In this document: positions 16,641-34,254 of the stretch, one piece after another
Layout: every line of letters starts with the position of its first letter
Position numbering within the stretch: the stretch's first letter is position 1
Assembly (NCBI RefSeq): GCF_013181195.1
Contig: NZ_SMZP01000011.1
Span: 1-64,000, forward strand
Source: Caulobacter sp. RHG1
GTDB lineage: Bacteria > Pseudomonadota > Alphaproteobacteria > Caulobacterales > Caulobacteraceae
Reading direction: 5' to 3'
DNA length: 64,000 nucleotides
The notes under the pieces: generated by a model
What the model was told of the DNA's origin: nothing
The model's database searches: none
Seen by the model: only the letters and a program-made list of their open reading frames with translations
Position numbers and translations under genes: made by a program

Positions 16641-16659
16641 ACCACCCGGGGGGACCGTC

Positions 16660-18096: not shown

Positions 18097-18533
18097 ACGC
18101 CGACGTCGCCGTTGAGATGCGAGCGCGCGCCCCGTAGATTGATTGTGCGGGGCCGCGCGCCGCCGCCTGCGTCCGACATGCCAGGGGCCGCGCCTCGCGC
18201 GGCGGCATGGGCGCTGCTCGGCACGCGCGGGCTCCTGGTTCTGCTCGGAGTTTCCACCCCCGCCCCTTTTCCTTCCGCGCACCGAACAAGGTTCGCTTGC
18301 CTGCGAAATCCAAATCGGTCACGATTCCCCTGCCGGAGCGCGAGCTTCGGCAGGGGCGTGGAAACCCCTGAGCAAGATCTGGTGACATAGGCCGCCGACG
18401 ACCGCGTCGGGGGCATGCGTTCTTGTGCGGAACGATCGCGAGCGCCTGCGCGTCTCGCGGCCTGCTCTCTCATGCCGTTTCCGCGGGCTCGGGTTCGACC
18501 GCTCGCCCCTTCCTTGAACCCGGGAGAAGGTCG
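18097..18533 (+). other. 437-bp intergenic region upstream of the sigma-factor gene
   Basis: No convincing gene. It holds one copy of an intergenic element that recurs at 29868-29990 and, within it, an inverted third copy of the element core on the minus strand at about 18350-18378. A hairpin with 9-bp perfect arms lies at 18327-18335 and 18348-18356. GGGAGAAGG at 18521-18529 is the ribosome-binding site of the following gene. Confidence 0.6.
18131..18385 (+). repeat. Intergenic element, copy 1 (with inverted core copy)
   Basis: The core TGCTCGGAGTTTCCACCCCC at 18243-18262 is near-identical to TTGCTCGAGGTTTCCAACCC at 29960-29979. Upstream of both cores are alignable GC-rich stretches beginning GGGCCGCG and containing a CGCGGG block. 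A reverse-strand copy, TTGCTCAGGGGTTTCCACGC, runs from about 18376 down to 18357. The copies are diverged and no terminal repeats or transposase were seen, so this may be an ICE backbone regulatory segment rather than a transposable repeat. Confidence 0.6.
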
Positions 18534-19064
18534 ATGACGCATGTTGGGAAACCTGTCCCGACAGCGCCTCAGGACGCGGTCACGCTGGACGCCCTCTATC
18601 GCCGTTACGCGCGATGGCTGGGTCACATGTTGCGCAGGCGGTTTCACGACGTCGATCCAGCCACGTCCGAGGACCTGGTGCAGGAAACCTACGTCCGTGT
18701 TGCGCCCTACCATGCGCGCGGCGTCATCCAGCACCCGCGCGCCCTGCTGCTGAAGGTCGCCACGAACCTGGTCCATGACCACCGCCGCCGGTTGCTGCGA
18801 GGTGGAGCAGCGCCAGTCCTGATTGAAGAAACCCTCGAAAGAGAGGAACATGTCTTCGCACCGGCGCAGGACGAAGCGGTCCTCTTGGGTCAGCTGATCG
18901 AAAAGCTGCCGGCAAAGCTTAGGGATGTTTTTGTCTTGAGCCGTTTCGCCGGTTTCTCCAACCAGCAGACCGCCGACCACATGGGCCTCTCGGTCAAACG
19001 GGTCGAAGCGCTCTTGACCCAAGCCCTGGCCATTCTGGCCGCTCAGATGGCGGCGAAAGATTGA
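18534..19064 (+). CDS. ECF RNA polymerase sigma factor, FecI type
   Basis: A 176-aa extracytoplasmic-function sigma factor. Region 2: LDALYRRYARWLGHMLRRR and SEDLVQETYVRV; region 4: LPAKLRDVFVLSRFAGFSNQ followed by VKRVEALLTQAL. With the FecR gene right behind it and a TonB receptor with an STN domain next, this is a FecI/FecR cell-surface signalling unit. It should direct RNA polymerase to the receptor and isopeptidase genes. The start at 18534 is fixed by the strong site GGGAGAAGG 4-12 bases upstream; an earlier in-frame ATG lacks one. Confidence 0.92.
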   Translation: MTHVGKPVPTAPQDAVTLDALYRRYARWLGHMLRRRFHDVDPATSEDLVQETYVRVAPYHARGVIQHPRALLLKVATNLVHDHRRRLLRGGAAPVLIEETLEREEHVFAPAQDEAVLLGQLIEKLPAKLRDVFVLSRFAGFSNQQTADHMGLSVKRVEALLTQALAILAAQMAAKD

Positions 19065-19066
19065 GC

Positions 19067-20035
19067 ATGCCCGAGGACACGTTGGAAAGCTCGCCAACCA
19101 CCACCGCGGCCAACTGGCTGGCCCGTCTGAACACGACCACTGTGTCGGCCAAGACGATGGACGAGTTTCGCGACTGGCGCGCGCAGCCGGGCAATCACGA
19201 GGCCTTCCACGAGGTCGCACAGCTCTGGGCCAAATCCGCGCAAGCCAAGACCCAACCCGGCGTCCAGGCCGCGCTCGAGGCCGCCCTGGCTCGCAAGGCG
19301 CCCAGGCGTGCGAACAGGATCGGCTTTGGTCTGGCCGTGGCCACCGCCATGGTGACCGTCTCCATCGGCGGATACGTCACCTGGCGCAGCATCGCCGCAC
19401 CCAACTTCGACACGGGCGTGGGCGAGCAGCGCCTGGTTCAACTGTCCGACGGCAGCAGCGTCCGCCTCGACACCAATTCCAAGGTCACCGTCCGCTATAG
19501 CCAGGGTGCGCGGCGGATCACCCTGGCCCGCGGCCAGGCCTATTTCGAGGTCGCGCACGACGCTGCCCGCCCGTTCCTGGTCGAGACGCCCCAGGCGAGC
19601 GTACGCGCGATCGGCACACGGTTTTCGGTTCGAGAGGACGGCGCGACAACCAAGGTGACCTTGGTGCAAGGCCGCATCGAGGTACGCGACGGCCACAACG
19701 CCTCGCCGCGCCTCCTGACCGCCGGAGAGCAGATCATCGCGACCCAGGCGCTTGGCCCAGTTCAAAAGGTCGACGCCAAGGTGGCGACCAGCTGGACGAC
19801 CGGGCGGCTGGTCTTCCGCGGTGTGCCGCTTCAGCAGGCGCTCGTCGAGATCAACCGCTACAGCCGAAAACCCATCCGGCTAGACCCCGCCTACGACCAG
19901 ATCGAAACGCTCACCGGCGCCTTCGACAGCGCCGACACCGACGCCATGGTCGCGGCTGTGGCCAGCCTGCGAGGCCTCAGCGTCGAGCATCGGCCCGACG
20001 GCTCGATCCTTCTGCGTCAACGTCCCGACGCCTGA
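19067..20035 (+). CDS. FecR-family anti-sigma factor
   Basis: A 322-aa inner-membrane protein. Residues ~1-85 are cytoplasmic with the FecR N-terminal motif (AANWLARLN...FRDWRAQPGNHEAF). A membrane helix follows (GLAVATAMVTVSIGGYV). The periplasmic part has the FecR domain: LSDGSSVRLDTNSKV, RRITLARGQAYFEVAHDAARPF and a C-terminal STN-interacting region (RLVFRGVPLQQALVEINRY). It relays the receptor's ligand signal to the sigma factor. ATG 19067 lies two bases behind the sigma-factor stop; a TTG at 19061 overlapping that stop is an alternative. Confidence 0.92.
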   Translation: MPEDTLESSPTTTAANWLARLNTTTVSAKTMDEFRDWRAQPGNHEAFHEVAQLWAKSAQAKTQPGVQAALEAALARKAPRRANRIGFGLAVATAMVTVSIGGYVTWRSIAAPNFDTGVGEQRLVQLSDGSSVRLDTNSKVTVRYSQGARRITLARGQAYFEVAHDAARPFLVETPQASVRAIGTRFSVREDGATTKVTLVQGRIEVRDGHNASPRLLTAGEQIIATQALGPVQKVDAKVATSWTTGRLVFRGVPLQQALVEINRYSRKPIRLDPAYDQIETLTGAFDSADTDAMVAAVASLRGLSVEHRPDGSILLRQRPDA

Positions 20036-20166: not shown

Positions 20167-23163
20167 ATGTCGCATCCGTTTCGTCGCCGCCTAGCCTCCA
20201 GCCTGACCCACGCGGCCCTGCTGGCCGCTCTCGCCGCGCCCACCGTGGTGGTCGCGCAGCCCCAACAGCTCGCCTTCGACATTCCCGCCGGACCGTTGGA
20301 CAAGGCGCTGCTGGCCTTTGCCGACCAGTCCAAACTGCAAGTTCTCTACGATGACGCAACCGTCCAAGGGCGCCGGGCCGTGCGCCTGCAGGGCCGGTTC
20401 ACGGCCCAGGACGGCCTCAGGCGCTTGCTGAGCAAAAGCGATATCGCCGCCGAGCAGATCCGCCCCGGCGTCTATGTGCTCAAGCGTATCGGCCAGCTCG
20501 CCGCCAACCCGCCGCTGAGCGCGGTCGAGCCCGAACGTCTCGTCGCCGAGCCCACGACCGAATTGGCGGAACTAATCGTCACCGGGTCGTTCATTCGCGG
20601 CGCCTCGCCCTCCTCGCCCATCGTCACTGTCAGTCGCGATGACATCGACCGCTCGGGCCGCGCCAGCGTCGCCGACGTGCTGGCCGCCCTGCCCCAGAAC
20701 TACGGCAACGCCGCGTCGCCGACGGCGCTCTTGGGGCTAGCCGACACCAGCGGCTCCAACGGATCTCTGGCCCGCGGCGTCAATCTGAGGGGCCTGGGCG
20801 CCAATGCCACCCTGGTGCTCGTCAATGGACGTCGGATGGCCGGCTCGGGTTCTAGGGGAGACATCGCCGATATCTCGGCCATCCCCACGGCGGCCGTTCA
20901 AAGGGTCGAAGTCCTGCTCGACGGCGCTTCGGCGCTGTATGGCTCGGACGCGGTGGCCGGCGTGGTCAATCTGATCCCGCGCCGAGATTGGAACGGTGGT
21001 GAACTGCGGCTTCGACTGGGCGCTACACGCGGTGGCGCCGAACAGGTGCAGGTGTCTCAGGCGGCTGGTCACACCTGGGATCACGGCCATCTGCTCCTGG
21101 CGCTCGAATACCAAAGGGACAACGAGCTCTCATCGGCCAAGCGCCCCTATACCGCCACCTCCGACCTGCGAGCATTCGGCGGCGCCGATTATCGAACCAT
21201 CTACAGCTTCCCGGCCAATATCGTGGCCTACAGCGCCAGCGTGGGGGCCTACGTGCCGACCTACGCCGTTCCCGCCACGGGGGCCAAGGGCGTATCGGAC
21301 CTGATAGCAGGCGGGCGAAATCTACAGAACCAGCGTCAGGGCTACTCAGCTTTGCCCCGGCAGACGCGATACAGCGGCTTCCTGGATTTTCGGCAGGAAC
21401 TGAGCGACCGCCTGACCCTTGCCGGGGACCTTCGGTTCACCCGTCGAGACTTCGCCTACAGCGGCCAGGGGGCGCCGTCGATCTTTCAGATCACGGCCGC
21501 CAACCCCTACTTCCTCTCGCCCAACGGAGCGACCAGCCAACTCGTCGCCTACAACTTCTACAACGAGCTGGGCGCATCTCACTCTTCCGGCCGGTCAAAG
21601 AGCTTTGGCGTCAGCCAGGCGCTTGAATCGAGACTATGGAGCGACTGGCGCGGCGAAGCCTATCTGGCCTACGCCCAGCAGCAGAGCTATCTCGCCCTCC
21701 CCCGTCAGCTCAGCAGCACGTTTCTGAACGAAGCTCTCGGCAATTCACCCGACAACCCGGCGACCGCCTTCAGTACGGCCAAAGACGGGTTCTTCAATCC
21801 GTTCGGCGGCGGCCGCGCCAACAACGCCGCCATCCTCGATTTCATCGGATCCGGCTGGCAGACGATCGACACCATCAGCCGCGTCGGCACCGCCAACATC
21901 AAACTAGACGGCTCGCTCGTCGACCTGCCTGGCGGCGCCCTGAAGCTCGCAGTCGGGGCGCAGTTTCGTCAGGAGCAGTTCAAAAACGCGGTGCGCATCT
22001 CATCGTCGGCGAACGCACCGGCGACCTATGGCGGCCGCACGTTCATGCGCAACATCTCCGCCGCCTTCGTTGAACTGCGCGCTCCTCTCGTCAGCGACAG
22101 CAATGCTCGGCCCGGCATCCAGCGCTTGGAACTCTCCCTCGCAGGCCGGGTCGAGCACTATGAAGACGCCGGCTCCAGCGCGACGCCGAAGATCGGTCTT
22201 CTCTGGTCGCCGGTTCACGACCTCTCCATCCGGGGGACCTACGGGCAGTCCTATCGGGCGCCCAGCCTGACCGAGGTCAACGAAGAAGGCTCCATCTCCT
22301 CGTCGACCTTGACCGCACCGAACGGCCAGCTCCTGGCCGTGGTTCGCTATGGCGGCAACAAGGATCTGAAGCCCGAAACCGCCAGATCATGGACCTTTGG
22401 GTTCGACTGGACTCCCGCCTTCGCCAAAGGTGTGACGATCAACGCAACCGCCTTCGACACGCGCTTCAAGAACCGTATCGGCAGGCCCGTGCTTGAGAAC
22501 TTCCAGAAGGTCCTGACTGATCCGGCATTCACCCCCTTCGTTCGACGCGTTGTTCCGGCCAGCAACACGGGCGACTTGGCCGATGTCCAAGCCTTGGTCG
22601 CGGCCTCAACGAACACGAGCATCAAGCTCTATCCGCTCACGTCGTTCGGGGCGATCATAGATGCGCGGATCGTCAATGCCGCCGAGCTCAATGTTCGTGG
22701 CGTCGACGTCAGCGCCGCCTATAGCTTCATCTATGAGGCCAATCGGTTTTCCCTCGGGGGCAGCGCAACCTATCTGCTAGATTTCAAGCGCCGCCTGACC
22801 CCGACAGCGCCGATCACCGAGTTGGTCGACACGGCGGGCAATCCGGTGGATCTGCGGCTGCGTGGCTCCGCCTCATGGGCGCGCGGTCCGCTCAGCGCCA
22901 ATCTCACGATCAACTATGTCGACGACTATGCTGCGACGGCCTCGAAACGGGTCGACAGTTGGACCACAATCGATCTGCAGCTGACTTGGACCGCGCCCGA
23001 CCAGACCGGATCGCTAAAGGGGTTGGGACTGGCGATCTCCGCCCAAAACCTCTTCGACACGGACCCGCCATTTTACGGCAGCGCCTTGGGCGTTGGCTAT
23101 GACGCGGCCAACGCTGACCCGCTTGGCCGGTTCGTTTCGGTCCAGCTGAGCAAGCGCTGGTAG
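20167..23163 (+). CDS. TonB-dependent receptor with STN signalling domain (lasso-peptide locus)
   Basis: A 998-aa outer-membrane receptor. Residues ~1-33 are a signal peptide ending VVVAQ. Residues ~36-105 form the STN domain (LAFDIPAGPLDKALLAFADQ...VYVLKR) that contacts FecR. The plug has VTGSFIRG, a DVLAALPQN motif and RRVEVLLDGASALYGSDA-like sequence. The beta barrel ends RFVSVQLSKRW with the terminal aromatic. It sits between FecR and the lasso isopeptidase, so the likely ligand is the lasso peptide, as in astexin- and caulosegnin-type loci. A 6-bp hairpin (20118-20133) lies in the 131-bp leader. Confidence 0.92.
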   Translation: MSHPFRRRLASSLTHAALLAALAAPTVVVAQPQQLAFDIPAGPLDKALLAFADQSKLQVLYDDATVQGRRAVRLQGRFTAQDGLRRLLSKSDIAAEQIRPGVYVLKRIGQLAANPPLSAVEPERLVAEPTTELAELIVTGSFIRGASPSSPIVTVSRDDIDRSGRASVADVLAALPQNYGNAASPTALLGLADTSGSNGSLARGVNLRGLGANATLVLVNGRRMAGSGSRGDIADISAIPTAAVQRVEVLLDGASALYGSDAVAGVVNLIPRRDWNGGELRLRLGATRGGAEQVQVSQAAGHTWDHGHLLLALEYQRDNELSSAKRPYTATSDLRAFGGADYRTIYSFPANIVAYSASVGAYVPTYAVPATGAKGVSDLIAGGRNLQNQRQGYSALPRQTRYSGFLDFRQELSDRLTLAGDLRFTRRDFAYSGQGAPSIFQITAANPYFLSPNGATSQLVAYNFYNELGASHSSGRSKSFGVSQALESRLWSDWRGEAYLAYAQQQSYLALPRQLSSTFLNEALGNSPDNPATAFSTAKDGFFNPFGGGRANNAAILDFIGSGWQTIDTISRVGTANIKLDGSLVDLPGGALKLAVGAQFRQEQFKNAVRISSSANAPATYGGRTFMRNISAAFVELRAPLVSDSNARPGIQRLELSLAGRVEHYEDAGSSATPKIGLLWSPVHDLSIRGTYGQSYRAPSLTEVNEEGSISSSTLTAPNGQLLAVVRYGGNKDLKPETARSWTFGFDWTPAFAKGVTINATAFDTRFKNRIGRPVLENFQKVLTDPAFTPFVRRVVPASNTGDLADVQALVAASTNTSIKLYPLTSFGAIIDARIVNAAELNVRGVDVSAAYSFIYEANRFSLGGSATYLLDFKRRLTPTAPITELVDTAGNPVDLRLRGSASWARGPLSANLTINYVDDYAATASKRVDSWTTIDLQLTWTAPDQTGSLKGLGLAISAQNLFDTDPPFYGSALGVGYDAANADPLGRFVSVQLSKRW

Positions 23164-23198
23164 CCGCCCCCTCCCTAAAAGGCATCAGAGTTTTCGTA

Positions 23199-25685
23199 AT
23201 GCGCAAGCTTTTGTCCTGCGCGGCGCTTGGCCTTGTCTTGATTGGCTCCTGCGCCGCCTCGCGTCCGTACACAGTGGACGATCTGGTCGGACTGGAAGTG
23301 TTCAGCGGCGTGTCGGTAGACCCCACCGAGCACTGGCTGCTGATCGACACGCTGAAGCCCTTGGACCAAGCAGGTCGGTACGACTACCTGCAAGGCTCGG
23401 GTCCAGCTCGCGGACGCCCTCTTCTGGTCGACCTGACGAAACCAGCCGCCGCAGTACCCCTTCTGCCCGACATTCAGGGCATGGGATACACGATCGGTCC
23501 CTTCTCTCCGGATGGCGCGCGGATTGCGGTCTATCGCCACAAGGATGAGCTGTGGGAGCTCGGCGTCGTCACGCTCGCCAATCGCCAGATACGTTGGCTC
23601 GGGCTTTCGACTGACATCCCCTTGTGGGGATCAGGCCTGCAATGGCGTTCGGCGACCGAGTTGGTCGCACTAGGCCTCGCTCCCGGCGATCTCCCAGCCA
23701 AGATCCGTCGCGGACGCCAAGCCATGGAACGCCTCAAGTCCAACTGGGCGACGGCATTAGAAGGTGAAGCCGCCAGCTACACTCGGATCGGCAGCGGCCG
23801 CTACGCGGGCGTGAGGGACCTGCCACCACCGAAAGCCCTACTGCGGATCGCCGTCGACACCGGCAACATTGAGGCCGTGGCGAAGGGCCAATTCAAGGAC
23901 CTCGAAATATCGCCCAGTGGCCGCTTCGTCGCCTTGGTCGAAGCCGAAATCCCAACCCAGCCTGACGCGGCCACACCGCCCCGCATGATCGACTTCGAAG
24001 GCCGGCGCCCGACCGTCGCGATCTTCGAGCTGTCGAGCGGTCGGGCGATCCGACCGACACTTCAGGAGATCCTGCCCACACTGCTCTCCTGGTCGCAGGA
24101 TGATCGGCTGCTAGTCTTTACGCGTGACCAAGGCCACGTTTGGGCCGATGGCGATCTGCGGGAGGTCAACGCAAGAACTGGCGTGATCAGGCCCCTGACG
24201 AATACCCAACTTAGGGCCGATGTCGCCATGCCTGTGAGGGAGCTCGGCTACAGCGTCGTTCAAGCGGGCTGGTACGGCAAGGCGCCGATCATCCTAGCCC
24301 GTCGCGCCGGCGACCAACGCCCCGACTGGTTTGAGCTAGCGCCCAGCCAGGCGATCAACCTGACGAGGGCGATCCCAACCGCGCCAACCGCGGCTGCAGC
24401 CGCCTCGGTCGAAGGGCTCTTGGTTCAGGCCGGAGCTGAAGTTTGGCGGATCTTGCCTGGCCGCCCCAAGCGGCTTGGAAAGGAGGCTCGCCTAACTTTC
24501 ACACCCCGTACCGACGGTGGCGCTCGTGCCCCGCTCATCAACCTGACAACTTCGGCCGCCTGGATCCGAACGGGCAAGCAGGATCGTCAAGTCATTCGAC
24601 GGCTCGGCGATCACGTGGACCAAGCAGTCATGCCGGCCGCCCCAGGCGAGCGCCCCCTGCTCCTAACCCGCCATGGATCGATCAGCAGTACGACCAACGA
24701 CCATGGCGTGCGAACGATCAGCATAACCCGAGCCAACCACATCGTGCCCCTTCTGACGCTAAACGCGGGGCTCTCCGATATTGAGCTGCCGAACCGGCAG
24801 CCGCTCAAGCACAAGGCCCCCAACGGGCGGGAGCTGACGAGCTGGCTCTACACACCGCCCGGTCTCAAACCCAACGAACGGGCGCCGCTGATCGTAAAGA
24901 CCTACCCGAATTTGGATCAACCAGAGCCCCCCGGTGGCGGCCTCCCAAGTTCTTCCTTTTCGATGTTCAGCACGAGCCTGCTCACTGCCGCCGGCTACGC
25001 CGTCCTGGACGCTTCCTATCAGCGGAACCCCGCTTCGGTTGAACCCAGCGACGGCTTCACTCAGGCTTTGGTCGATGCAACGGACGCGGCGATCGCGACC
25101 GGCCATGTCGACCCAAACCGCATGGCGCTGATGGGCCATAGCTTCGGCGCCTACGCCACGATGATCGCCGTCGCGCGCACGCACCGCTTCAAAGCGGCAA
25201 TTGCGAACATGGGCATTTCGGATCTGACGTCACATATGCTGACGGCGCTGCCGCACTATCGCAGCGTGCCGGAGGACGGCATGCCTGCGGCCGTCCCCTA
25301 CAGCTGGGGCGAAACCGGGCAAGGCAATCTAGGCGCAGCGCCCTGGGACGCCCCACAACGCTATATCCGTAACAGCCCTGTTTACGGAGCTGGTGCGGTC
25401 GAAACCCCGCTACTGCTCGTTGGAGCTGATCAGGAATGGGGCTCGATCGGGCAGATGGAGGAAATGTTCTACGCGCTGTGGCGCCAGAACAAAGACGCCA
25501 AGCTGCTGACCTTCTGGGGCGAGACACATGGGCTCGAAAGTCCGGCCAACATCCGTGCCTACTGGTCGGAGGTCTTCTCCTTCCTCACGCCGCTGATCGG
25601 TCCGACGGCTAGTTCGGGCGGCGATAGCCTCGCCAGCCGCTCCTCCCACGACCGAACCCAAGCCTCAATGGCGAGCAAACCGTAG
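23199..25685 (+). CDS. Lasso peptide isopeptidase (S9 prolyl-oligopeptidase family)
   Basis: An 828-aa S9-family serine hydrolase. The N-terminal half is a beta-propeller (WD-like blades such as YTIGPFSPDGARIAVYR). The C-terminal alpha/beta-hydrolase domain has S648 in MGHSFGAYA, D744 in LLVGADQEW and H777 in WGETHGLES. Homologues such as AtxE2 cut the Gly-Asp/Glu isopeptide bond of their own lasso peptide. A hydrophobic N-terminus with LIGSCAAS suggests export, possibly as a lipoprotein (Cys19). It follows the TonB receptor by 35 bases. Its 3' end overlaps the convergent C gene by 127 bases. Confidence 0.93.
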   Translation: MRKLLSCAALGLVLIGSCAASRPYTVDDLVGLEVFSGVSVDPTEHWLLIDTLKPLDQAGRYDYLQGSGPARGRPLLVDLTKPAAAVPLLPDIQGMGYTIGPFSPDGARIAVYRHKDELWELGVVTLANRQIRWLGLSTDIPLWGSGLQWRSATELVALGLAPGDLPAKIRRGRQAMERLKSNWATALEGEAASYTRIGSGRYAGVRDLPPPKALLRIAVDTGNIEAVAKGQFKDLEISPSGRFVALVEAEIPTQPDAATPPRMIDFEGRRPTVAIFELSSGRAIRPTLQEILPTLLSWSQDDRLLVFTRDQGHVWADGDLREVNARTGVIRPLTNTQLRADVAMPVRELGYSVVQAGWYGKAPIILARRAGDQRPDWFELAPSQAINLTRAIPTAPTAAAAASVEGLLVQAGAEVWRILPGRPKRLGKEARLTFTPRTDGGARAPLINLTTSAAWIRTGKQDRQVIRRLGDHVDQAVMPAAPGERPLLLTRHGSISSTTNDHGVRTISITRANHIVPLLTLNAGLSDIELPNRQPLKHKAPNGRELTSWLYTPPGLKPNERAPLIVKTYPNLDQPEPPGGGLPSSSFSMFSTSLLTAAGYAVLDASYQRNPASVEPSDGFTQALVDATDAAIATGHVDPNRMALMGHSFGAYATMIAVARTHRFKAAIANMGISDLTSHMLTALPHYRSVPEDGMPAAVPYSWGETGQGNLGAAPWDAPQRYIRNSPVYGAGAVETPLLLVGADQEWGSIGQMEEMFYALWRQNKDAKLLTFWGETHGLESPANIRAYWSEVFSFLTPLIGPTASSGGDSLASRSSHDRTQASMASKP

Positions 25686-27403
25686 ATTTCGCCATACCTC
25701 CCAACGTGGGCCAATTCCTCAAGAGAAAGGCGGATTTCGAGCAAGTCTCGATCCAGAATACCGGCTGCGACGAGCCGCCCATCCAGGAGAAACGGCGTTA
25801 TCTCGTCCAGACCGGCGGCCAGGGCGTGGCCGTAAAAGGCGGTCATGTCCCCCTTGGTTCGCCTGTTGGCGACGACGCCGGGAAGGCGCTCGGCAAACGT
25901 ATCTCTGGCGAGGCCGCGTGATCGGCCGCCTTGGACAAGTCGATCTGCAGGAATCGACAGGCAAAGCTCCACGACCGGCTGAGACAGAAGCGGATGAAGG
26001 ACCGCAGCCTCCCGTCCCCGCCGACTTCGCCCCCTTACTAGCTGGATGTAGGCGAGATTCGCGATCTGTAGGCGTTTGGCCGGTGGCAAGCCATCCGCCA
26101 TCTCGATCCAAGTGTGCCTCGCCACCGCTGAACCAGACAGCCTGTCGTGAGCTGAGGTGAGCGTGTGGGACGACGCTTTCGCGCTCTGGGCGTGGCCGAA
26201 AACTTGGCGCAGGACTGTCCAAACCGAGACTTGGTTCCAGACCGCGATCTCTCGCAGGAACGCCCAAGACAGTCCTTTGAACCCCAACCGGCGAAATCGG
26301 TCGGCTGCTACCGTCGGCGTTTCCATCTGAAAGAAGACCACGTCGCCGCCCTGGCCTGTCATGATGGCGCTAGCTCCAGCCGCACGAGCAGCGCTCCCCA
26401 TCGCCTCATCGAAGCCGATGTCAGCGGCGTTGAAGGTCGGCCTGGGCCCATCTGCCACATCAAGGAAACTTGTCGGCCGAACGACCAACTCAGCTCTGGG
26501 CACTTCAGTCAGCTCCACGCCAAGCCGCTCGGTCAAAGCCCGCGCATATGGCCGTTCATCGCCCACCCAGTCGTCGATGAAGTGATTGAGCCACGACTTC
26601 ACGTCTGCGCCCTGCGAAACGAGGGCCGCCGCGACGATCGAAGAATCCAGGCCGCCAGAGACTTCGGCAATCACCGGCCCGTAGGCTGCAGCCCAGGCGC
26701 CGACACACCGATCGACAGTTTGGCGAAGCTTTCCTTCCAGGTCTCCAGAAGGTGGCGGACGCCGCGCGACCTCGCCCGGCGCCCAGATGCGCCTGCGCTG
26801 CGGGCCAGACTGCTCGAACGCGATCAACTCACCCGGTTCGATAGCCTCAACCCCTAGCAGGAGGCTGCAGGTCTGCGCCATGTTCGGTGCAGTCACTACC
26901 CGGCGCACCATCACCCAATCGATCGCAACACCGTCGGTGAAATGGCGCAGCACCGCGTGAGGTAGGCTTGAGGCGACAACCACCACATCGGCATAGCGCA
27001 AACCGAAAGCATCGATGCCGCCCATCGGATCACGATAGACACCCCAAACGTCCCGCTGCACGGCCGGGAATAGAGCGACATAACGACCCCAGTATTGGTC
27101 GCTAAGATGCCTGGAGGCTGTGGCCAGATCCACATCGCCTGCTAGCTCGGCAATACCGTCTACAAGGTCGCCATCAGCGTTGAACACATCGCCGATCACC
27201 ACGCCACCGCGCGTTCCCCAGGGAACAACCCGAGCTGCGGAATCCCCAAAGCCAAAGACCCATAAGCCCGGCCGTTCATAGGCTAGGCGCCATCCTTCGC
27301 GTTCGAGATCGGCCTTTACCCTCACGATCGCGGTGGTGCCGGCGCCGGAGACTTCACCGTTAAGCCAGGCAAGGGCCACAAACTGGTCTCGCGCCACGAT
27401 CAT
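25559..27403 (-). CDS. Lasso peptide C protein (asparagine-synthetase-like macrolactam cyclase)
   Basis: A 614-aa homologue of McjC. Residues ~1-200 resemble the glutaminase half of asparagine synthetase B but without an N-terminal Cys (starts MIVARDQ), as expected for lasso cyclases. The synthetase half has the ATP-pyrophosphatase loop EVSGGLDSSIVAA (SGGLDSS at 249-255). It adenylates the ring Asp/Glu and joins it to Gly1 of the core. The ATG at 27403 overlaps the B-gene stop (ATGA), which fixes the start; a longer frame would run into the B gene. The last 127 bases overlap the convergent isopeptidase gene. Confidence 0.93.
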   Translation of the reverse strand: MIVARDQFVALAWLNGEVSGAGTTAIVRVKADLEREGWRLAYERPGLWVFGFGDSAARVVPWGTRGGVVIGDVFNADGDLVDGIAELAGDVDLATASRHLSDQYWGRYVALFPAVQRDVWGVYRDPMGGIDAFGLRYADVVVVASSLPHAVLRHFTDGVAIDWVMVRRVVTAPNMAQTCSLLLGVEAIEPGELIAFEQSGPQRRRIWAPGEVARRPPPSGDLEGKLRQTVDRCVGAWAAAYGPVIAEVSGGLDSSIVAAALVSQGADVKSWLNHFIDDWVGDERPYARALTERLGVELTEVPRAELVVRPTSFLDVADGPRPTFNAADIGFDEAMGSAARAAGASAIMTGQGGDVVFFQMETPTVAADRFRRLGFKGLSWAFLREIAVWNQVSVWTVLRQVFGHAQSAKASSHTLTSAHDRLSGSAVARHTWIEMADGLPPAKRLQIANLAYIQLVRGRSRRGREAAVLHPLLSQPVVELCLSIPADRLVQGGRSRGLARDTFAERLPGVVANRRTKGDMTAFYGHALAAGLDEITPFLLDGRLVAAGILDRDLLEIRLSLEELAHVGRYGEIYGLLAIEAWVRSWEERLARLSPPELAVGPISGVRKEKTSDQ

Positions 27404-28044
27404 ACCGCCAAGATTGGCGTGTAGCGCCGAACACGTAGCAGGCGATCGTTGAGCACTAGGCCATCGAACTGCACCCAACAGTGGGCAGCAAACGGCCAAG
27501 TGCTAACGCCGAACACCCAGCGAGTTCGGGGCGCCAAGTTCTTGAGATGGGCGCGTAGGAGAGCAGCACGGTAGAGACACTGGCCCTGAAATGGGAGCCA
27601 AGGCAGAACGGCGCGTAAGACTAGAGCCCGCTCAATGACGTCAGCCGCCGCGCCCTGCCCCTCACTGCTCAGCCGCGGCTCCACGATCGTCGAGAGCTGC
27701 GTCGAATTTAGCCGTGCAGAGACCCGTGCCGAAAGGATCGCCATTTTCGCTCGGAACGCCACGGACACGGTGGGGTCGGGTCGATCGTAGAGGTCTGCAT
27801 CAGCGGGCAGCAAAGCCAGCGACGGCCGACGGTCCGCGCCCCGCGCTCTCGTCCCGAGACCCGCGTCCGCGAGCTCACTGATCAGATCAGCATCATCGAT
27901 GGTGGCTCCCACACCCGACGGCTCCAGGCGAACCGAGCGTTCAGCTAGCGGCAGAACCACATAGTCGTTGCGATCGGCGTCTAGGACGACAAGATCTCGG
28001 CCATGCATGACCGCGTGAACGCGAGGACCCCAGTACCAATTCAT
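27400..28044 (-). CDS. Lasso peptide B protein (fused RRE and transglutaminase-like leader peptidase)
   Basis: A 214-aa fused B protein. Residues ~1-80 form the RiPP recognition element that binds the leader (VMHGRDLVVLDADRNDYVVL...). Residues ~90-214 form the transglutaminase-like protease that removes it, with C156 in FQGQCLYRA, H188 in WPFAAHCWVQ and D200 in VLNDRLL as the catalytic triad. The gene lies 63 bases behind the precursor, separated by a strong hairpin, and overlaps the C gene by ATGA. Confidence 0.93.
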   Translation of the reverse strand: MNWYWGPRVHAVMHGRDLVVLDADRNDYVVLPLAERSVRLEPSGVGATIDDADLISELADAGLGTRARGADRRPSLALLPADADLYDRPDPTVSVAFRAKMAILSARVSARLNSTQLSTIVEPRLSSEGQGAAADVIERALVLRAVLPWLPFQGQCLYRAALLRAHLKNLAPRTRWVFGVSTWPFAAHCWVQFDGLVLNDRLLRVRRYTPILAV

Positions 28045-28067
28045 GCTTCACCCGTGCATCGAAAGAC

Positions 28068-28100
28068 GTGACCGGGCGCACCTACGCCGCGCCCGGTCAC
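28068..28100 (-). terminator. Strong stem-loop between the lasso precursor and B genes
   Basis: Perfect 12-bp arms GTGACCGGGCGC (28068-28079) and GCGCCCGGTCAC (28089-28100) with a 9-base loop, starting 8 bases behind the precursor stop. There is no T-run, so it should act as an attenuator or 3'-end mRNA stabiliser that keeps precursor levels above those of B and C. Hairpins at this place are common in lasso loci. Confidence 0.75.
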
Positions 28101-28107
28101 GATCCGT

Positions 28108-28227
28108 TCAGGCCGGCAGATCGTACTGACTGATCACCAGCGTCTCTTCGTTCGGGCCGTCGAACCCGAGGGTCCGGCGCTTGGCGTCGGCCAGTCGGAT
28201 CAGCTTGGTCTTGCGGGTCTTGCCCAT
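28108..28227 (-). CDS. Lasso peptide precursor (A gene)
   Basis: A 39-aa precursor too short for routine calling. The leader is residues 1-20 (MGKTRKTKLIRLADAKRRTL) with the conserved Thr at position -2. The predicted core is GFDGPNEETLVISQYDLPA (19 residues): Gly1 would be linked to the side chain of Glu8, giving an 8-residue ring, with an 11-residue tail; Glu7 is the less likely acceptor. Gln14-Tyr15 are candidate plug residues. GGGAGA lies about 8 bases before the ATG. The gene is directly upstream of B and C and downstream of a GntR gene. The ring size and plug are inference; the leader/core split follows family rules. Confidence 0.9.
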   Translation of the reverse strand: MGKTRKTKLIRLADAKRRTLGFDGPNEETLVISQYDLPA

Positions 28228-28394
28228 GACGGGATCTCCCTTGAGAAGCGTCGCGTGATTGCGACAACCTCAGGAAGCGCCCGCAGAAACAGGCATTCAA
28301 ACTATATCTAGAATATTTGAGCGCCCATATCCGCGCTCATCAATTACGACACCAGGGATATAGGCTACCTATTGAAGGTCTATATTCAAGATAT
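28228..28394 (-). promoter_or_regulatory. AT-rich lasso-operon promoter region with a paired operator-like motif
   Basis: The 167 bp between the GntR stop and the precursor ATG are strikingly AT-rich in their distal part. ATATCTAGAATAT at 28304-28316 recurs on the other strand at 28382-28394 as ATATCTTGAATAT (one mismatch, 66 bp between the copies). The pair probably binds a regulator, with the adjacent GntR protein as the first candidate. I could not assign a convincing -35/-10 pair. Confidence 0.55.
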
Positions 28395-29042
28395 TTACCG
28401 CTCTCCTTGTCGACGGATCAGCGCAACGATGTGACCGGCCGCGGCACGCCGGCGCTGGTGATAGCCGCCAATCTCGCTGGTCAGTGAGCGCCATTCTCGG
28501 GCGTCGTAGAGCTCGATCAGGGCGCCGATTTCATCGACCATGCCGGTGAGCACCATCGGCTCGGTGCGGCGCGCGGGAGCGAGCCGGTCGGCGAGCGAGG
28601 CCTGACTTGCGACAAGCGTTCGACCACCGCCAGCTCGCACGATCACAGCAAACAGGCGCTCACCCGCGCGGACCGGGTCGGCCTTCCAGAGCACCGGGTC
28701 GGCCAAGAGAGCTTCACGCGGCTGCTCCACGCGGATGCCCGAGGCCTCGGCGCCTTCCAGGACCGTCAGCGCCGCGCCGACTTGAAGCTGATTAAGGTCG
28801 TAGAGCTCGACAAGGTCCAACGGATCGACACGCCAGCTGAAGTAGCCGCGCCCACGGCGGTCCTCGATGAGCCCCTCGCCTGCCAGCCGTGACAGCGCCT
28901 CTCGAACCGGCGTTGCACTCAAATCCAACTCGCGGGCCAGGTCGCTGATCGGAAGGGGCTCTCCCAAAACGAAATCGCCTCCGCGTAAGCGTTCGCGCAG
29001 CGCCTCCAGCGCTCGACTGAATGGATCAAGCTCTCGGACCAC
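28395..29042 (-). CDS. GntR-family transcriptional regulator (FadR/FCD-like)
   Basis: A 215-aa regulator. Residues ~8-75 are the GntR winged helix (ALEALRERLRGGDF..LPISDLARELDLSATPVREALSRLAGEGLIEDR). The rest is a helical FCD-like effector domain (LVELYDLNQLQVGAALTVLEG...). It lies upstream of and co-directional with the precursor, B and C genes. Regulation of the lasso operon or itself is inferred from position and from operator-like repeats on its 3' side. A 15-base AT palindrome lies upstream at 29128-29142. Confidence 0.85.
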   Translation of the reverse strand: MVRELDPFSRALEALRERLRGGDFVLGEPLPISDLARELDLSATPVREALSRLAGEGLIEDRRGRGYFSWRVDPLDLVELYDLNQLQVGAALTVLEGAEASGIRVEQPREALLADPVLWKADPVRAGERLFAVIVRAGGGRTLVASQASLADRLAPARRTEPMVLTGMVDEIGALIELYDAREWRSLTSEIGGYHQRRRAAAGHIVALIRRQGER

Positions 29043-29351
29043 CGTTCACCTCACCAAATACCCCCTCCTGAAATACGCACAATTGTCCAGCCACCCCTCA
29101 AGACTACGAACAACCGAAACATGAGAATATATTAAATATATAATTCACCACACATACTTGCTAAAATACCGCAAGAAACTTGCGGATCGCTAACAACAAT
29201 TCGCGATCGTTTGACCAGCTTCGTTTTCGAGCAGACCTTGAGCGCCTCCCGCCCGAACTCATTCGTTGGCGGATCATCCGCACATGACCGTTGATCCTGA
29301 CCACGAAGCGCGAGAGGGTCGCCCCCAGGTTGATTTTTCCGTATCGAGTTC
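29043..29351. promoter_or_regulatory. 309-bp intergenic region between GntR and XRE genes
   Basis: Divergent promoter region, AT-rich at 29120-29215. It contains the palindrome ATATATTAAATATAT at 29128-29142 and a hairpin CCGCAAG-AAA-CTTGCGG at 29169-29185. No coding frame is convincing. Confidence 0.5.
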
Positions 29352-29822
29352 ATGACCAGAGGGAGTAGCAATCCGCCGCCCTGGAGCGCCCTGCTCTCGA
29401 AGGCGGTGCGCCTCCTTCGACGCGCGCGCGGCGCGACGGTCGGCGACATGGCCGACGCCATGGAACTGCAGGTCCGCACCTATGAACACTTCGAAAGTGG
29501 ACAGGCTCGGCCGAACTTCGAGCGAATGCACCGCTTTGCGCATGCGACCGACGCCGACCCCAACGGCCTGATCACTTCGCTGCTCATCGGCTCGCCGGAG
29601 TTCGCCGTCCGCGTAGCCGACAACAAGCTGATGACCGCCTTCCTGATCGAGCTACAGACCTTCGACCAGGCCGCTGGCGACGATCTGCGCCGGCTCGACA
29701 CCTTGACCATCGTCTCGGAGTTCTCCGCGACCTTCGAACGCCTGCTCGAGGAAGTCCGGCGCCGCGCAGACCTGGCGGCGCGATTGCAGGGCGGCCTGGG
29801 TCCATCAGACGAAAACCAGTAG
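29352..29822 (+). CDS. XRE-family helix-turn-helix protein
   Basis: A 156-aa protein. Residues ~12-72 look like a Cro/C1-type HTH: LLSKAVRLLRRARGATVGDM, MELQVRTYEHFESGQARPNF (recognition helix and E-x-G turn). The C-terminal ~80 residues are helical and unassigned. It stands alone, divergent from the lasso GntR gene and followed by the second intergenic element copy. Its target is unknown; regulators of this type are common in ICE cargo. Confidence 0.75.
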   Translation: MTRGSSNPPPWSALLSKAVRLLRRARGATVGDMADAMELQVRTYEHFESGQARPNFERMHRFAHATDADPNGLITSLLIGSPEFAVRVADNKLMTAFLIELQTFDQAAGDDLRRLDTLTIVSEFSATFERLLEEVRRRADLAARLQGGLGPSDENQ

Positions 29823-29867
29823 GAGCTTGCCGCCCGCGGCGACGGCGCCTACCGTCGTAGGCGGCGG

Positions 29868-29990
29868 GGGCCGTTATATAGGCCGCGAGCCGATGCGATC
29901 AGGGCCGCGTAGCGCGGAAGTATCGCGGCGCGCGCGCTGAAGTCACGGGCCTCTGCACTTGCTCGAGGTTTCCAACCCCCGCCCCCTATA
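29868..29990 (+). repeat. Intergenic element, copy 2
   Basis: Diverged direct copy of the element at 18131-18270: a GGCCGCG block, GGGCCGCGTAGCGCGG, an ACGGGC block and then the core TTGCTCGAGGTTTCCAACCC (29960-29979) followed by CCCGCCCC. Unlike copy 1 it lacks the inverted core and the 9-bp hairpin. It lies 3' of the XRE gene, so the pair brackets about 11.5 kb containing the lasso cluster. Confidence 0.58.
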
Positions 29991-30050
29991 CCTCGCGACA
30001 CAGCATCGATGGGGCTTTTGAGCCGCCGTGATCTGGGCCAAGCTCTACCT

Positions 30051-30650
30051 ATGTGGAAGCCGTCTCGCCCCATTCTCGCCCTTGGCGCCGCCTGCGCGGT
30101 GGCCACGCTCGTCGTTGTCGGCGCGGTGACCAAGGATCGCTCGCTGTTTGGTCAGACCGTAGCGGCCTGGGCCCAGGCGATCTTCGCCGCGGCGGCCGTG
30201 TTCGCCGCGGCTTGGCTCCAGGAACGGTACTTGCGCCGCCAATCCCAAGAGCAACGTCACCAGAAGATCCACAACGCCGCATCGGCTGCGCGCTGGGTGC
30301 TGCAGACCTACGAACGCATTCATCAAGCCGTTGATGGTCGCAGCCTGCCCTTGCGGGACTTCGTCAATCTCGATGGCCAAGGGGCATTTGCAACGGCCGC
30401 CAAGGTGCTGGCCGAGCTGAGGTTGGGCGACCTCGATGACCATGAGCTGGCGACGGCGGTCCTGACCCTACAGGGCGTGATTGCCGACATCAGCGCCAAG
30501 CGTGATGAACAACTCGACATCGCAAAGCGCGCGCCCAACGCGGTCGTCACCGAGCGCTGGCTAAAGCAGGACTACGTCGCGGTGTTCAACGCCGCCTCCG
30601 CCGTCGAGCGGCTCGCGGCCCGCGCGACCGGGCGCAAAGCCGCCCTCTAG
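30051..30650 (+). CDS. Membrane-anchored protein of unknown function
   Basis: A 199-aa protein from the ATG at 30051 (an in-frame ATG at 30009 would add 14 residues). Two N-terminal hydrophobic helices (PILALGAACAVATLVVVGAV and WAQAIFAAAAVFAAAWL) are followed by a ~140-residue cytoplasmic helical region (KIHNAASAARWVLQTYERIHQ...). No family was recognised. It lies just upstream of, and co-directional with, the nuclease/HEPN pair (61-base gap), so it may be a membrane-anchored component of the same locus; this is inference only. Confidence 0.65.
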   Translation: MWKPSRPILALGAACAVATLVVVGAVTKDRSLFGQTVAAWAQAIFAAAAVFAAAWLQERYLRRQSQEQRHQKIHNAASAARWVLQTYERIHQAVDGRSLPLRDFVNLDGQGAFATAAKVLAELRLGDLDDHELATAVLTLQGVIADISAKRDEQLDIAKRAPNAVVTERWLKQDYVAVFNAASAVERLAARATGRKAAL

Positions 30651-30711
30651 CCCTTCCCAAACAGCAGCGACACGCGACGCCAGCCCCTCTTACGAGACCA
30701 GAGCAAGATCG

Positions 30712-31638
30712 ATGCGGATCACCAATCCACTCTCGCCAATTGAGATCTTCACCGAACTTCTGCGCCGCAATGCCGTGACAGATTCCGAAACAGTCCAGTT
30801 CAAGAACTTCAAACACGACAAGGACCTCTGCCCTTCGTTCACGGAGATTTTGGAGGGCGTGCTTGGCGTCTTTGGCAGCTACCACACCGACGTCCACGAC
30901 ATTCAAGGCTTCTCGGACGAGGGCATCGATGTGCTCCTGCGCTATCGAGCCGACGACGGTGAGCACAAGATCGGCCTCCAGATCAAAAGCTACGACGAGT
31001 TCGAGCTGTGGGCCAAGGAGAAGCTCGACGTCCTCAAGACGCTCAAGGCGCAGTATGCGACCGCCATGCACACGGTCCGTACTGAGGAATATTTCGTTGT
31101 GCTCTGCACCGACGCCGCCAAACATCGTGGCCGGATCCGCAGCATCACCTCGGCCCTGAAAACGTTCGCCAACTGCACGATCGTCAAACCCAAGGAAGCA
31201 CTGGGCCTGTTGCAGCTCGGCGGCCTGGACACCTTCATCCAGGCCACGCGCCTGATCTGTCAGGATGACCGTACGCTTCAAGCGGCGGAATCCTACGTCG
31301 CCGACATGCCGCCTGCCCAGGCCTACGCCGTCATCGCCCTGGTCTGTGGTGCATTTGAGAACGGGCCGGACCTGGATGAACGTGACATCGTCGAGTTCCT
31401 GCGCGAATGGGAGGAAACCTTCCATGCGCCCCGACTGGATGCCCATGAGGAAGTCGACATCATCGACGACCTCGTCACCGAACAGATGATCGGCTACGCG
31501 GACGGTGTCTATCGGATCGATGTCCGACGCCTGCCCGAACAAATCTGTGCGCTCTATTTCGACCAAAAGGTTCTTGGCACGCGCACCGATCGCAGCTTCC
31601 GGATCCGCCTGGCCAAGCTCCTCGATCTTGCGCCATGA
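30712..31638 (+). CDS. PD-(D/E)XK-like nuclease protein
   Basis: A 308-aa protein. The region EGIDVLLRYR...IGLQIKSYDEF has the Asp (D73) and QxK (Q90, K92) spacing of Mrr-like restriction endonuclease cores. A preceding helix and a following alpha/beta stretch (YFVVLCTDAAKHRGRI) complete the fold. The C-terminal ~110 residues are helical and unassigned. It overlaps the next gene by 4 bases (ATGA), so the two products very likely act together. The long minus-strand frame across it (30586-31707) is a shadow. Confidence 0.78.
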   Translation: MRITNPLSPIEIFTELLRRNAVTDSETVQFKNFKHDKDLCPSFTEILEGVLGVFGSYHTDVHDIQGFSDEGIDVLLRYRADDGEHKIGLQIKSYDEFELWAKEKLDVLKTLKAQYATAMHTVRTEEYFVVLCTDAAKHRGRIRSITSALKTFANCTIVKPKEALGLLQLGGLDTFIQATRLICQDDRTLQAAESYVADMPPAQAYAVIALVCGAFENGPDLDERDIVEFLREWEETFHAPRLDAHEEVDIIDDLVTEQMIGYADGVYRIDVRRLPEQICALYFDQKVLGTRTDRSFRIRLAKLLDLAP

Positions 31639-32294
31639 CCAACCTCCCGCTTGAGCCGTTCGATCCTCTCGCCGAAGCGGACGAGGCCATGAACGCACTC
31701 GCCACATGGCTCGCGGACGTTCCCGGCGGCGTTTGTATTTTCTGGCCCAGCCCCACGAGCCCGGCCGCCCTTACCAGCTTTCCGACCATCGACGCTTGGC
31801 GTCGGGCTCTGGAAGCGCTCGATCTGGATTCCGCCTGCGCCGCACCCGCCGTCGTGCGCGTCAAATATCGGCGAGCTCAGAAGCTCTACCTGCTGGCATG
31901 GGCCGATGCCGACGTGATGTTAGCTGCAGAAATAGTGGCGTTTACCGCTCTGGAGCTCGCGCTCAACGATCGCTTCGGCCTCCTGGTCAAAGCCCTGTCG
32001 CCGCCGAGGAAGAAGAAGGAACCGTCCGCTACAGGCATGATCGCCACGCCGCCGCTCTCAGACCTCCTCGACCACCTGGTCACCCACCAGGGCATTCGCG
32101 AGTTGGATTTCCCCACCGCGCTGATCGGTGGCGGTCGCGTCATCAACCGTTTGCGCAAGATCGGCCCCTTGGCTGATCGCCCGACCCTCGCAGAGATGCG
32201 CAACCGTCACGCCCACGGCTCGCCGATCGAAGGCGGACCACTCTCAGGCCTGCTCCATGTGATCCGCGACCTGATCCACTACTGTTACGCCTGA
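31635..32294 (+). CDS. Protein with a HEPN-like RX4H motif, partner of the nuclease gene
   Basis: A 219-aa protein translationally coupled (ATGA) to the PD-(D/E)XK-like gene. Near the C-terminus EMRNRHAHG gives R189-x4-H194, the RX4-6H motif of HEPN RNases, after a helix with ELALNDRFG typical of HEPN domains. Residues 90-180 are helical (AAEIVAFTALELALN). A HEPN assignment is plausible but based on one motif. If right, the pair combines a DNA nuclease with an RNase. Confidence 0.68.
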   Translation: MTNLPLEPFDPLAEADEAMNALATWLADVPGGVCIFWPSPTSPAALTSFPTIDAWRRALEALDLDSACAAPAVVRVKYRRAQKLYLLAWADADVMLAAEIVAFTALELALNDRFGLLVKALSPPRKKKEPSATGMIATPPLSDLLDHLVTHQGIRELDFPTALIGGGRVINRLRKIGPLADRPTLAEMRNRHAHGSPIEGGPLSGLLHVIRDLIHYCYA

Positions 32295-32457
32295 CACACG
32301 TTGCGCCGCCAAGCCGACCTTCACGAGGACTGTCGTTACGAGCAGTATGCGCCAGAAGCGGACCCTTGCTCGTCGGCGGAAAGCGGGCCTTTGAGTTTCC
32401 GGTGCCCAGCGGATTTTCACTGCGACCTCGAGTCTGGATCGGTGCCCCGCGCCATGT

Positions 32458-34254
32458 TCACGGCAATACACCCCCCGTGGCGAGATCCGCGCTCATCCGT
32501 GCGACGAACCCACGTACGGCGTCATTGTGGATCTCAGCGTCGAACGGCGTTCCCATCATCGCCAGCCGCCGAGCGACAAACCAGTCCTGAAACGACTGGT
32601 GAGCAAACCGAAACATGCGTTGGCGACTAACAGGGCCCCGGCCGGCCGGAAGCAGCAGCGAGTTCAACGCGATTTCCTCGATCCTCGCGACCTCCGCCGA
32701 GACCATGCGGAGGATTTCTCTCAAGCGATCCTCCGTTATGACCGCCGCCTCATCCCGCAGTCCAGCGGCGGCAATTTCGCTGGCGACGTCCTGCATCGCT
32801 AAGATCAGGCGCTCCCCCTCCTCCTCCCGCCCGAGCCGGTTCGCGAGTTCGCCCGCTCGGACAACGGCCGCCGCTCCGGCGCTGTGGCGATCCAAGTACA
32901 ATTTCCGCCGAAGGTACTTGCCGTAGAGCCGATGCAACTCCCGTTCGGGTTCTGCATCGCGCCATGCGTCGTGGGCCAGCATGCCCAGAAACAAGGGCCG
33001 TCTGGGGATATCACCATAGACCGAGACATAGCCGCCGCTTTGCACCAGCTGTCGGAAGCGTTCGAAAGCCGCAGGAGGCGGACTGGATTGGGCCGCTTCG
33101 TAGCGGCGCAGGAATTCATCGATCAGGGGGTCCGGCCAGTCGCCCAAGGCTACGAGCTCAAAGAACGGCCGCCCGAAAGACCGACCGTCCCCCGCCTCGA
33201 ATTCCTGCCGACGCAGTTGGAGCAGTTCGTCCCGGATCGAGGCGACCAGCGGAAGCCCCAGATCCACGACGCCACCCCAGAGCGCCGACATGCGCTGGGG
33301 ATCGGCCCAATGGGCGCATTCGTCCAAACCGTCGATCAACAGCAACCAGTCGCGTGATCGGGCGAGTTCCTTGCGCAAAGTCTCGCGAAGCGTGAAGAGG
33401 ACGTGCTGCGGGGCTTCCCACCCGGACGGCATGATCTGCTCGAGCAGGCTTTCGGTAAGCCCCGCGCCGTTGACAAAAGCATTGTCGGACAGCAGCGCCG
33501 CGGGCACGTAGATGACGTGACCGGCGGACGCGATCCAGTCTTCCGCAATCGCGTGCAGGGCGCTGGTCTTTCCGAAGCCAAAGCTCGCCGTGAAGAGGAA
33601 GCGGGGCGGAGAGCGGTCCTTTCCAACATGCTCGGCATGGATCGCGGCCAGATATTGACGTACGGCCTTGTTGGTCCAATCGGCGGGCCATTCTCGTGCA
33701 ACGCCGCGGTGCTCAAACGGGACGTCGGCGATATAGCGGACGACTTCCAGCCGCTCGACGAACTCTGCGAGCAGCCGCGCCCGGGATTCGGTCGCCCAAT
33801 CGGCCAAGCGATCCCGGGCAAGAATTCGAAGCTGGTCGACGAAGGCGTTTAGATCGAGAAGCTTCGCCTCGGTCGCCTTACCGCTCGCGACCAGGTCATC
33901 GAGATGGGGTTCGACCGTTGCGCGATCCGGCTGGCCCATGCGCTTGTTGACGATCAGCCAATAGCTCGCGACGGGTGGGCCAACGCGCTTGAACTTCTGG
34001 ATCTCTTCGACGCAGGCCTCGACCTGTTGCTCGCTGATCGCTAGCTCAAAGCCCTTGCACTGGATCGCCATCGTAATCGCGTCGGTCGACTCGTCGTATT
34101 GCGACACGTCAATACCCAGGCAGTCCAACGCGCCCAGGCGGCGCGACCGCGCCACTCGGGGGATCAGGCCCGTCAGTAGATCGACCACCAACCCTTCGAG
34201 CGCGTCGTGGGTGGTGGACCGAATGAGGTGCCGGAGATCTGCGAAGCCGGGCAT
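32458..34254 (-). CDS. Mrr-like nuclease fused to a NACHT/STAND NTPase
   Basis: A 598-aa protein. Residues ~15-110 form a restriction-endonuclease-like domain: LDCLGIDVSQ with D49, and MAIQCKGFE with Q65 and K67. Residues ~215-400 form a NACHT NTPase with Walker A ASFGFGKT (223-230) and Walker B WLLLIDGLDE (303-312). The C-terminal part is helical and ends FRFAHQSFQDWFVARRLA, the winged-helix end of NACHT modules. The layout matches nuclease-effector STAND defence proteins, without a long repeat sensor. The ATG at 34254 is chosen; 58 upstream residues lack similarity. The 299 bp upstream hold no convincing gene. Confidence 0.84.
   Translation of the reverse strand: MPGFADLRHLIRSTTHDALEGLVVDLLTGLIPRVARSRRLGALDCLGIDVSQYDESTDAITMAIQCKGFELAISEQQVEACVEEIQKFKRVGPPVASYWLIVNKRMGQPDRATVEPHLDDLVASGKATEAKLLDLNAFVDQLRILARDRLADWATESRARLLAEFVERLEVVRYIADVPFEHRGVAREWPADWTNKAVRQYLAAIHAEHVGKDRSPPRFLFTASFGFGKTSALHAIAEDWIASAGHVIYVPAALLSDNAFVNGAGLTESLLEQIMPSGWEAPQHVLFTLRETLRKELARSRDWLLLIDGLDECAHWADPQRMSALWGGVVDLGLPLVASIRDELLQLRRQEFEAGDGRSFGRPFFELVALGDWPDPLIDEFLRRYEAAQSSPPPAAFERFRQLVQSGGYVSVYGDIPRRPLFLGMLAHDAWRDAEPERELHRLYGKYLRRKLYLDRHSAGAAAVVRAGELANRLGREEEGERLILAMQDVASEIAAAGLRDEAAVITEDRLREILRMVSAEVARIEEIALNSLLLPAGRGPVSRQRMFRFAHQSFQDWFVARRLAMMGTPFDAEIHNDAVRGFVARMSADLATGGVLP

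Follow-up and report, generated by a model that had tools for sequence, protein, structure and literature searches.

The caulosegnin I-III cluster of Caulobacter segnis (L064 and L105, which are the same stretch) is the described system against which the locus analysed here is best read. Caulosegnins appear as class II lasso peptides in a table of PMC12427821, the accessible part of which also gives the sequences (Table 1) that L064 encodes letter for letter; their rings comprise eight and nine residues, according to the accessible text of PMC13352647. Isopeptidase clusters are described, in the portion of PMC9266682 that is accessible, as almost constant in layout and enigmatic in role.

The locus of Caulobacter sp. 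RHG1 lies in a 64,000-nucleotide stretch of DNA (hereafter the window). On the minus strand the order is GntR regulator, precursor gene A, hairpin, B and C; facing these on the plus strand are a sigma factor, FecR, a TonB-dependent receptor and an S9 peptidase (Table 1). The caulosegnin cluster holds homologous B (37%), C (35%), isopeptidase (32%) and receptor (44%) genes, and GntR, FecR and sigma factor genes too, arranged as in RHG1. It differs in its cores and in having three precursors, each with Gly at leader position -8, whereas RHG1 has one, with Ala -8, Arg -3 and Leu -1. All 12 wide loci have homologues of the receptor, isopeptidase, C, B and GntR proteins, and their relative order and orientation do not vary. 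With a GntR gene before A, and receptor and sigma/anti-sigma genes beyond the isopeptidase gene, the RHG1 layout fits the isopeptidase-cluster type; as it matches both the family and the published description (PMC9266682), the cluster is by layout an ordinary member.

We regard A as almost certainly the precursor gene of a new lasso peptide. It is highly likely that this precursor is of class II and of the alphaproteobacterial isopeptidase-cluster type, with processing by B and C, a ring closed on Glu8, uptake through the TonB-dependent receptor and opening by the S9 enzyme.

Table 1. Features of the RHG1 lasso locus, in window coordinates.
Feature	Positions	Strand	Remarks
ECF sigma factor	18423..19064	+	true start possibly inside frame
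FecR-like anti-sigma regulator	19061..20035	+	
TonB-dependent receptor	20167..23163	+	N-terminal STN domain
S9 serine peptidase, putative lasso isopeptidase	23199..25685	+	Ser648, His777, probable acid Glu746
C protein, asparagine-synthetase-like lasso cyclase	25559..27403	-	ATG overlaps B stop by 4 nt
B protein	27400..28044	-	N-terminal putative leader-binding (RRE-like) domain, C-terminal cysteine protease
Hairpin directly 3' of A stop	28067..28101	-	14-bp stem, then TCTTTC
Lasso precursor gene A	28108..28227	-	39 aa and stop; orthologues; codon changes
Core peptide GFDGPNEETLVISQYDLPA	28111..28167	-	predicted Gly1-Glu8 macrolactam, 11-residue loop and tail
Leader peptide, 20 aa, MGKTRKTKLIRLADAKRRTL	28168..28227	-	Ala -8, Arg -3, Thr -2, Leu -1
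GntR-family regulator	28395..29042	-	precedes A
HTH regulator, frequent neighbour	29352..29822	+	in 9/12 loci at >60 bits

Cluster genes and predicted pathway

The initial annotation had placed intact B and C genes, with their catalytic residues, after A, and both profile scores and aligned residues bear this out. B matches NF033537 (lasso_biosyn_B2) at 57.7 bits (cut-off 33) and PF13471 at 59.7 bits (cut-off 26). C matches PF00733 (Asn_synthase) at 92.4 bits (cut-off 21) and falls below the cut-offs of both NCBIfam lasso-type cyclase models, as does the caulosegnin C protein. Cys156, His188 and Asp200 of B are invariant in all seven aligned B proteins; when the set is widened to 13, the Cys and His remain invariant and Glu takes the place of Asp200 in two. 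The SGGLDS loop of C is invariant in four of four aligned C proteins. The C frame is open from a TTG at 27499; its likelier start is the ATG at 27403, which aligns with the orthologue starts and shares an ATGA with the B stop.

The model of B (mean pLDDT 89.4) has a strand-rich N-terminal domain and places the protease residues in a mixed helix/strand domain. A Foldseek search of the PDB with this model gave no match at E <= 0.001, so the RRE fold of the N-terminal domain stays putative; PDB sequence searches with B, with C and with a B profile gave no match.

For the S9 protein, the best NCBIfam match is the Atxe2-family model, at 75.7 bits (cut-off 400). Subfamily differences probably account for this low score, since the S9 enzymes of the caulosegnin locus (47.6 bits) and of a caulonodin VI/VII-like locus (66.0 bits) also score low with this model; the best model for the caulosegnin-locus enzyme is a dipeptidyl-peptidase, at 54.7 bits against a cut-off of 900. 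By sequence, the S9 protein retrieved AtxE2 at 2.5e-09, with a general S9 peptidase ranking ahead of it (5.6e-14). The structural model (mean pLDDT 76.7) has the S9 fold, with a best Z of 30.4 and an rmsd of 5.5 over 533 residues. Many S9 peptidases share this fold, and AtxE2 is not among the matches listed by the fold search; the fold therefore does not mark the protein as an isopeptidase. All 11 aligned S9 sequences have Ser648 and His777, and the catalytic acid is probably position 746, which is Glu in three and Asp in eight of them.

By analogy with the family, the N-terminal domain of B would bind the 20-aa leader and its cysteine protease domain would cut after Leu -1. C would use ATP to activate the side chain of Glu8 and link it to the Gly1 amino group, with the tail trapped in the eight-residue ring, so that the peptide would be threaded. 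The TonB-dependent receptor probably re-imports the lasso, perhaps with cargo, across the outer membrane and probably relays a signal by way of FecR and the sigma factor; the isopeptide bond would then be opened by the S9 enzyme. The observed basis of this scheme consists of the genes and their motifs, the conserved layout and the conservation of Glu8.

A Pfam scan of 16 RHG1 proteins (15378-34428) found no ABC exporter. A search for repeats as candidate operators returned an imperfect 10-nt pair (28323-28332/28356-28365), an AT palindrome (29134-29145) and a 9-nt pair (29185-29208). The lasso cluster adjoins a segment (30712-34428) that is possibly a defence-like group: it encodes a protein with a sub-threshold XopAX-family match (162.6 of 350 bits), one unknown protein and a large protein that matches NACHT weakly (23.1 of 26.7 bits); PADLOC gave no match for these three.

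Precursor gene A and its leader

The initial annotation had described a 39-aa frame at 28108-28227 with Thr -2, Gly1, Glu7 and Glu8. The frame is present at that position with those residues; its strand, which had been left unstated, is minus. Read from 28227 to 28108 the full 39-codon product is MGKTRKTKLIRLADAKRRTLGFDGPNEETLVISQYDLPA, and the plus-strand reading of the same interval is unrelated. The ribosome-binding-like sequence AAGGGAG lies immediately 5' of the ATG, and the core has no Cys. When both strands of the 64-kb window were scanned for open reading frames of 30-60 aa with cores of 14-25 aa, A was the single frame to carry the lasso pattern T-x-G-(5-7)-[DE]. The computed monoisotopic mass of the predicted lasso product is 2045.958.

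Orthologues of A occupy the equivalent locus in three other Caulobacter genomes, G040, G003 and G071, where A is 82, 64 and 54% identical and C 63, 57 and 46% identical, respectively, in the same gene order; these loci were not met in the literature searched. Their core residues differ from those of RHG1 at 7, 12 and 10 of 19 codons, respectively, and G040 and G071 each have a second precursor. Compared to the nearest orthologue the leader shows two synonymous and no non-synonymous codon changes, and the core three synonymous and seven non-synonymous. A kept leader and a varied core are the pattern expected if conserved enzymes read the leader and the core is free to change. A search with the 39-aa precursor against 199 genomes drawn from the family gave matches in three genomes; the orthologue-bearing G040 and G003 are not among these and were probably outside the draw.

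A survey of 53 Caulobacter lasso loci (52 and RHG1; weaker C matches and some short contigs were left out) kept 97 candidate precursors, which come from 50 of the loci. The pattern specified Thr -2, a small residue at -6 and hydrophobic residues at -9 and -12, with only the first match per frame taken and rows further cut by length and distance filters; the second G071 precursor (Cys -8) was missed by it and stands outside the 97. Slightly different filters gave 98 precursors from 51 loci, of which the one from L058 may be a chance frame. At least two precursors occur in 39 of the 50 loci, whereas A is the sole precursor of the RHG1 locus: no second one was seen between A and the GntR gene in the three minus-strand frames of 28228-28420.

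Two further frames are recorded in their own right. In one of 75 genomes of the genus (G036; L044:6305-6532, plus strand) a 75-aa frame holds two apparent tandem leader-core units, LIGLGSARRHTR then ADSHIGDMELIPVRLYEPTG, followed by VVRLGSAEQATR then ADSPTGDFELIPVRLWQQG; judged by its sequence it is a possible two-core lasso precursor, and no paper on tandem or multiple-core lasso precursors was found by title or opening lines of the abstract in the literature searched. Near position 9031 of L091, in Caulobacter sp. S45, a plausible precursor (MRLGSAKRLIQ then GVSGDFVETALTKQPIPMG, start uncertain) has Ile, not Thr, at -2.

Gly -8 is present in 92 of the 97 precursors. The RHG1 leader keeps Thr -2 and has Ala at -8, and so departs from the Gly -8/Thr -2 arrangement that we take to be the GxxxxxT pattern of alphaproteobacterial lassos. 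The five exceptions are RHG1, G040 and G003 (Ala), the second precursor of G040 (Arg) and one precursor in L056 (Cys); in G071 the first precursor has Gly -8 and the second Cys. Taken together, Gly -8 is missing from five of the six precursors of the RHG1 clade (RHG1 and the three orthologous loci) compared to one of 92 outside it. Arg -3 is similarly rare, with four of its five occurrences among the 97 in the clade. Outside this set, 14 loci from Phenylobacterium, sphingomonads, Henriciella and others were examined, three of which belong to a single species; 13 showed a plausible Gly -8 precursor, picked by eye with chance frames or wrong cuts without Gly -8 set aside, and in L104 no plausible precursor was seen.

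As the nearly universal Gly -8 is missing, processing of A by B is not certain. If its loss marked decay, A would be poorly processed and the cluster would make little or no lasso, and both the Ala at -8 and the presence of a single precursor might be read in this way. We consider decay very unlikely: the leader differs from that of its nearest orthologue by synonymous changes only, leaving the protein unchanged, Ala -8 is common to three genomes, and A, B, C and the isopeptidase and receptor genes are all open with catalytic residues retained.

The core peptide and the hairpin 3' of A

An eight-residue ring through Glu8 had been predicted, and comparison of the orthologues favours the prediction. 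The six clade cores (GFDGPNEETLVISQYDLPA, GFQGQYEETLAISQVNPPA, GFDGPYLEPLAMWQMMPPA, GIEGNYQEFLGTRQVNPPA, GIEGPYVEALVTLQPKPPA and GIDGMFLEAAGGLRWTPTP) all conserve Gly1, Gly4 and Glu8. Tyr15 varies among them, as does position 7, which reads E, E, L, Q, V and L, with Glu in only two. Given a constant Glu8 beside a variable position 7, the aligned cores indicate that the ring very probably joins Gly1 to Glu8, a closure much likelier than one on Glu7. A seven-residue ring within the same cluster draws on the Glu that does occur at core position 7 and on the range of positions, 7 to 9, that the class allows for the ring acid (accessible text of PMC10368454); against the variation at position 7, and with an acid at 8 or 9 in every one of the 97 Caulobacter precursors, we give it only a slim chance.

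The core GFDGPNEETLVISQYDLPA is absent from the 46 cores compared, out of 62 rows of a published lasso catalogue table (the comparison omitted the disulfide class I and III rows, among others; marks for disulfides and spaces were stripped, and an odd letter in astexin-1 was entered as Q). Its first eight residues, GFDGPNEE, did not occur in the literature searched, although an earlier in-silico catalogue may list them. The claim that no described lasso peptide has this core is thus upheld over that range; the loose astexin-type likeness noted for the SQY tail needs correction. The best alignment score among the 46 belongs to caulonodin IV (SFDVGTIKEGLVSQYYFA) and not to an astexin. Caulonodin IV shares LV and SQY with the RHG1 core, in loop and tail, but starts with Ser, has Glu at 9 and is identical, ungapped, at only five positions; SQY is not kept in the orthologues. 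The RHG1 peptide is a new sequence within a well-known lasso family, and its A/B/C layout is ordinary.

The klebsidin ring, GSDGPIIE, is identical to the RHG1 ring at five of eight positions, and klebsidin, going by the title of a reference, is said to inhibit RNA polymerase. We rejected a klebsidin/microcin J25-like ring as evidence for such inhibition, as 12 of the 97 Caulobacter cores reach five of eight with some non-Caulobacter catalogue peptide and the match is therefore not special. That the RHG1 peptide is an antibacterial RNA polymerase inhibitor of this type, neither imported nor opened by the isopeptidase, is extremely unlikely in view of that count, of the 16 scanned proteins with no ABC transporter among them and of the accessible text of PMC9266682, by which antimicrobial activity is mostly absent from isopeptidase-cluster peptides.

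The hairpin between A and B scores -34.9 kcal/mol over a 61-nt stretch, with a z of -4.16 compared to 200 shuffles. Of the 98 Caulobacter precursor genes, 72 have a stem of 8 bp or longer within 55 nt 3' of the stop, as do only 3 of 98 coding controls. Each locus supplied a single piece of B as control, which served again for any additional precursor there; the mean stem in shuffles is below 6. After 26 of the 98, including the second G040 precursor, the stem is short or absent. Of 73 GC-rich stems, 71 have a sequence of their own. TTT occurs within 10 nt after the stem in 13 of the 73, compared to 3.1% of random 10-mers; most lack a clear T run. It is possible that the hairpin acts as a leaky terminator or as a stabiliser of the A mRNA, either of which would account for its presence. 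According to the accessible text of PMC6092494, nearly all peptides tried gave higher yields, by 1.8- to 84.5-fold, once a strong ribosome-binding site was placed in the A-B gap, a gain to which removal of extra precursors may have contributed. Such a gain would fit a leaky terminator or stabiliser, though it is no test of either. The accessible part of the lasso literature searched on hairpins and the intergenic region contained no description of a hairpin after lasso precursor genes.

Leader and B protein in the RHG1 clade

Lasso C and the B protease family each have three matches in the RHG1 genome. Besides the locus described here, it carries clusters L036 (G000:C11:470000-488000), with four candidate precursors, and L037 (G000:C2:13000-32000), with two. 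The L037 and RHG1 leaders differ mainly at -8, -3 and -1 and are otherwise nearly identical (LVRLGDAKRLTK against LIRLADAKRRTL), and it is this difference within one genome that makes a private leader code worth testing.

The B proteins of the clade also carry residues of their own. Position 5 is Trp in all four clade members, while among 49 others it is Leu in 40 and Trp in one; position 14 is His in all four, and Ile, Val or Leu in 43 of the 49, with His in none. At position 30 the clade has Val or Leu, which none of the 49 has, 41 of them having Cys; at position 27 the three Ala -8 loci have Asp, again found in none of the 49. In the model of B, residues 2-5, 9-14 and 27-31 lie in strands of the N-terminal domain, where the clade-specific residues may touch the leader.

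One tentative reading, which we hold to be possible and rather less than probable, is that the leader (Gly -8 to Ala, Arg -3, Leu -1) and the N-terminal domain of B (Trp5, His14, loss of Cys30) changed together and so set up a private pathway among the three. The clade forms a single branch of the B tree with support of 100/99, which means that the changes in leader and B represent few events. Weighing against a private code are its restriction to one clade, the retention of Gly -8 in G071 together with Arg -3 and Leu -1, and the fact that descent alone predicts clade-specific residues. A comparable separation has been described in Bacillota, where, according to the accessible text of PMC13381572, experiments with the paeninodin and LPP RREs show that a leader motif (the Trp or Tyr of WxxP/YxxP) and a pocket of the RRE keep RiPP pathways separate in one cell. 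The RHG1 counterpart would lie at the proteobacterial leader positions -8, -3 and -1, as far as sequence alone can indicate.

The peptide itself is one further sequence in a large lasso family. If true, the private code would represent a natural orthogonal leader-RRE pair in Proteobacteria. The RHG1 leader, together with two coexisting lasso pathways, offers a route to ask how cross-processing is avoided within one cell, and the leader and its B protein may provide an orthogonal pair for lasso engineering.
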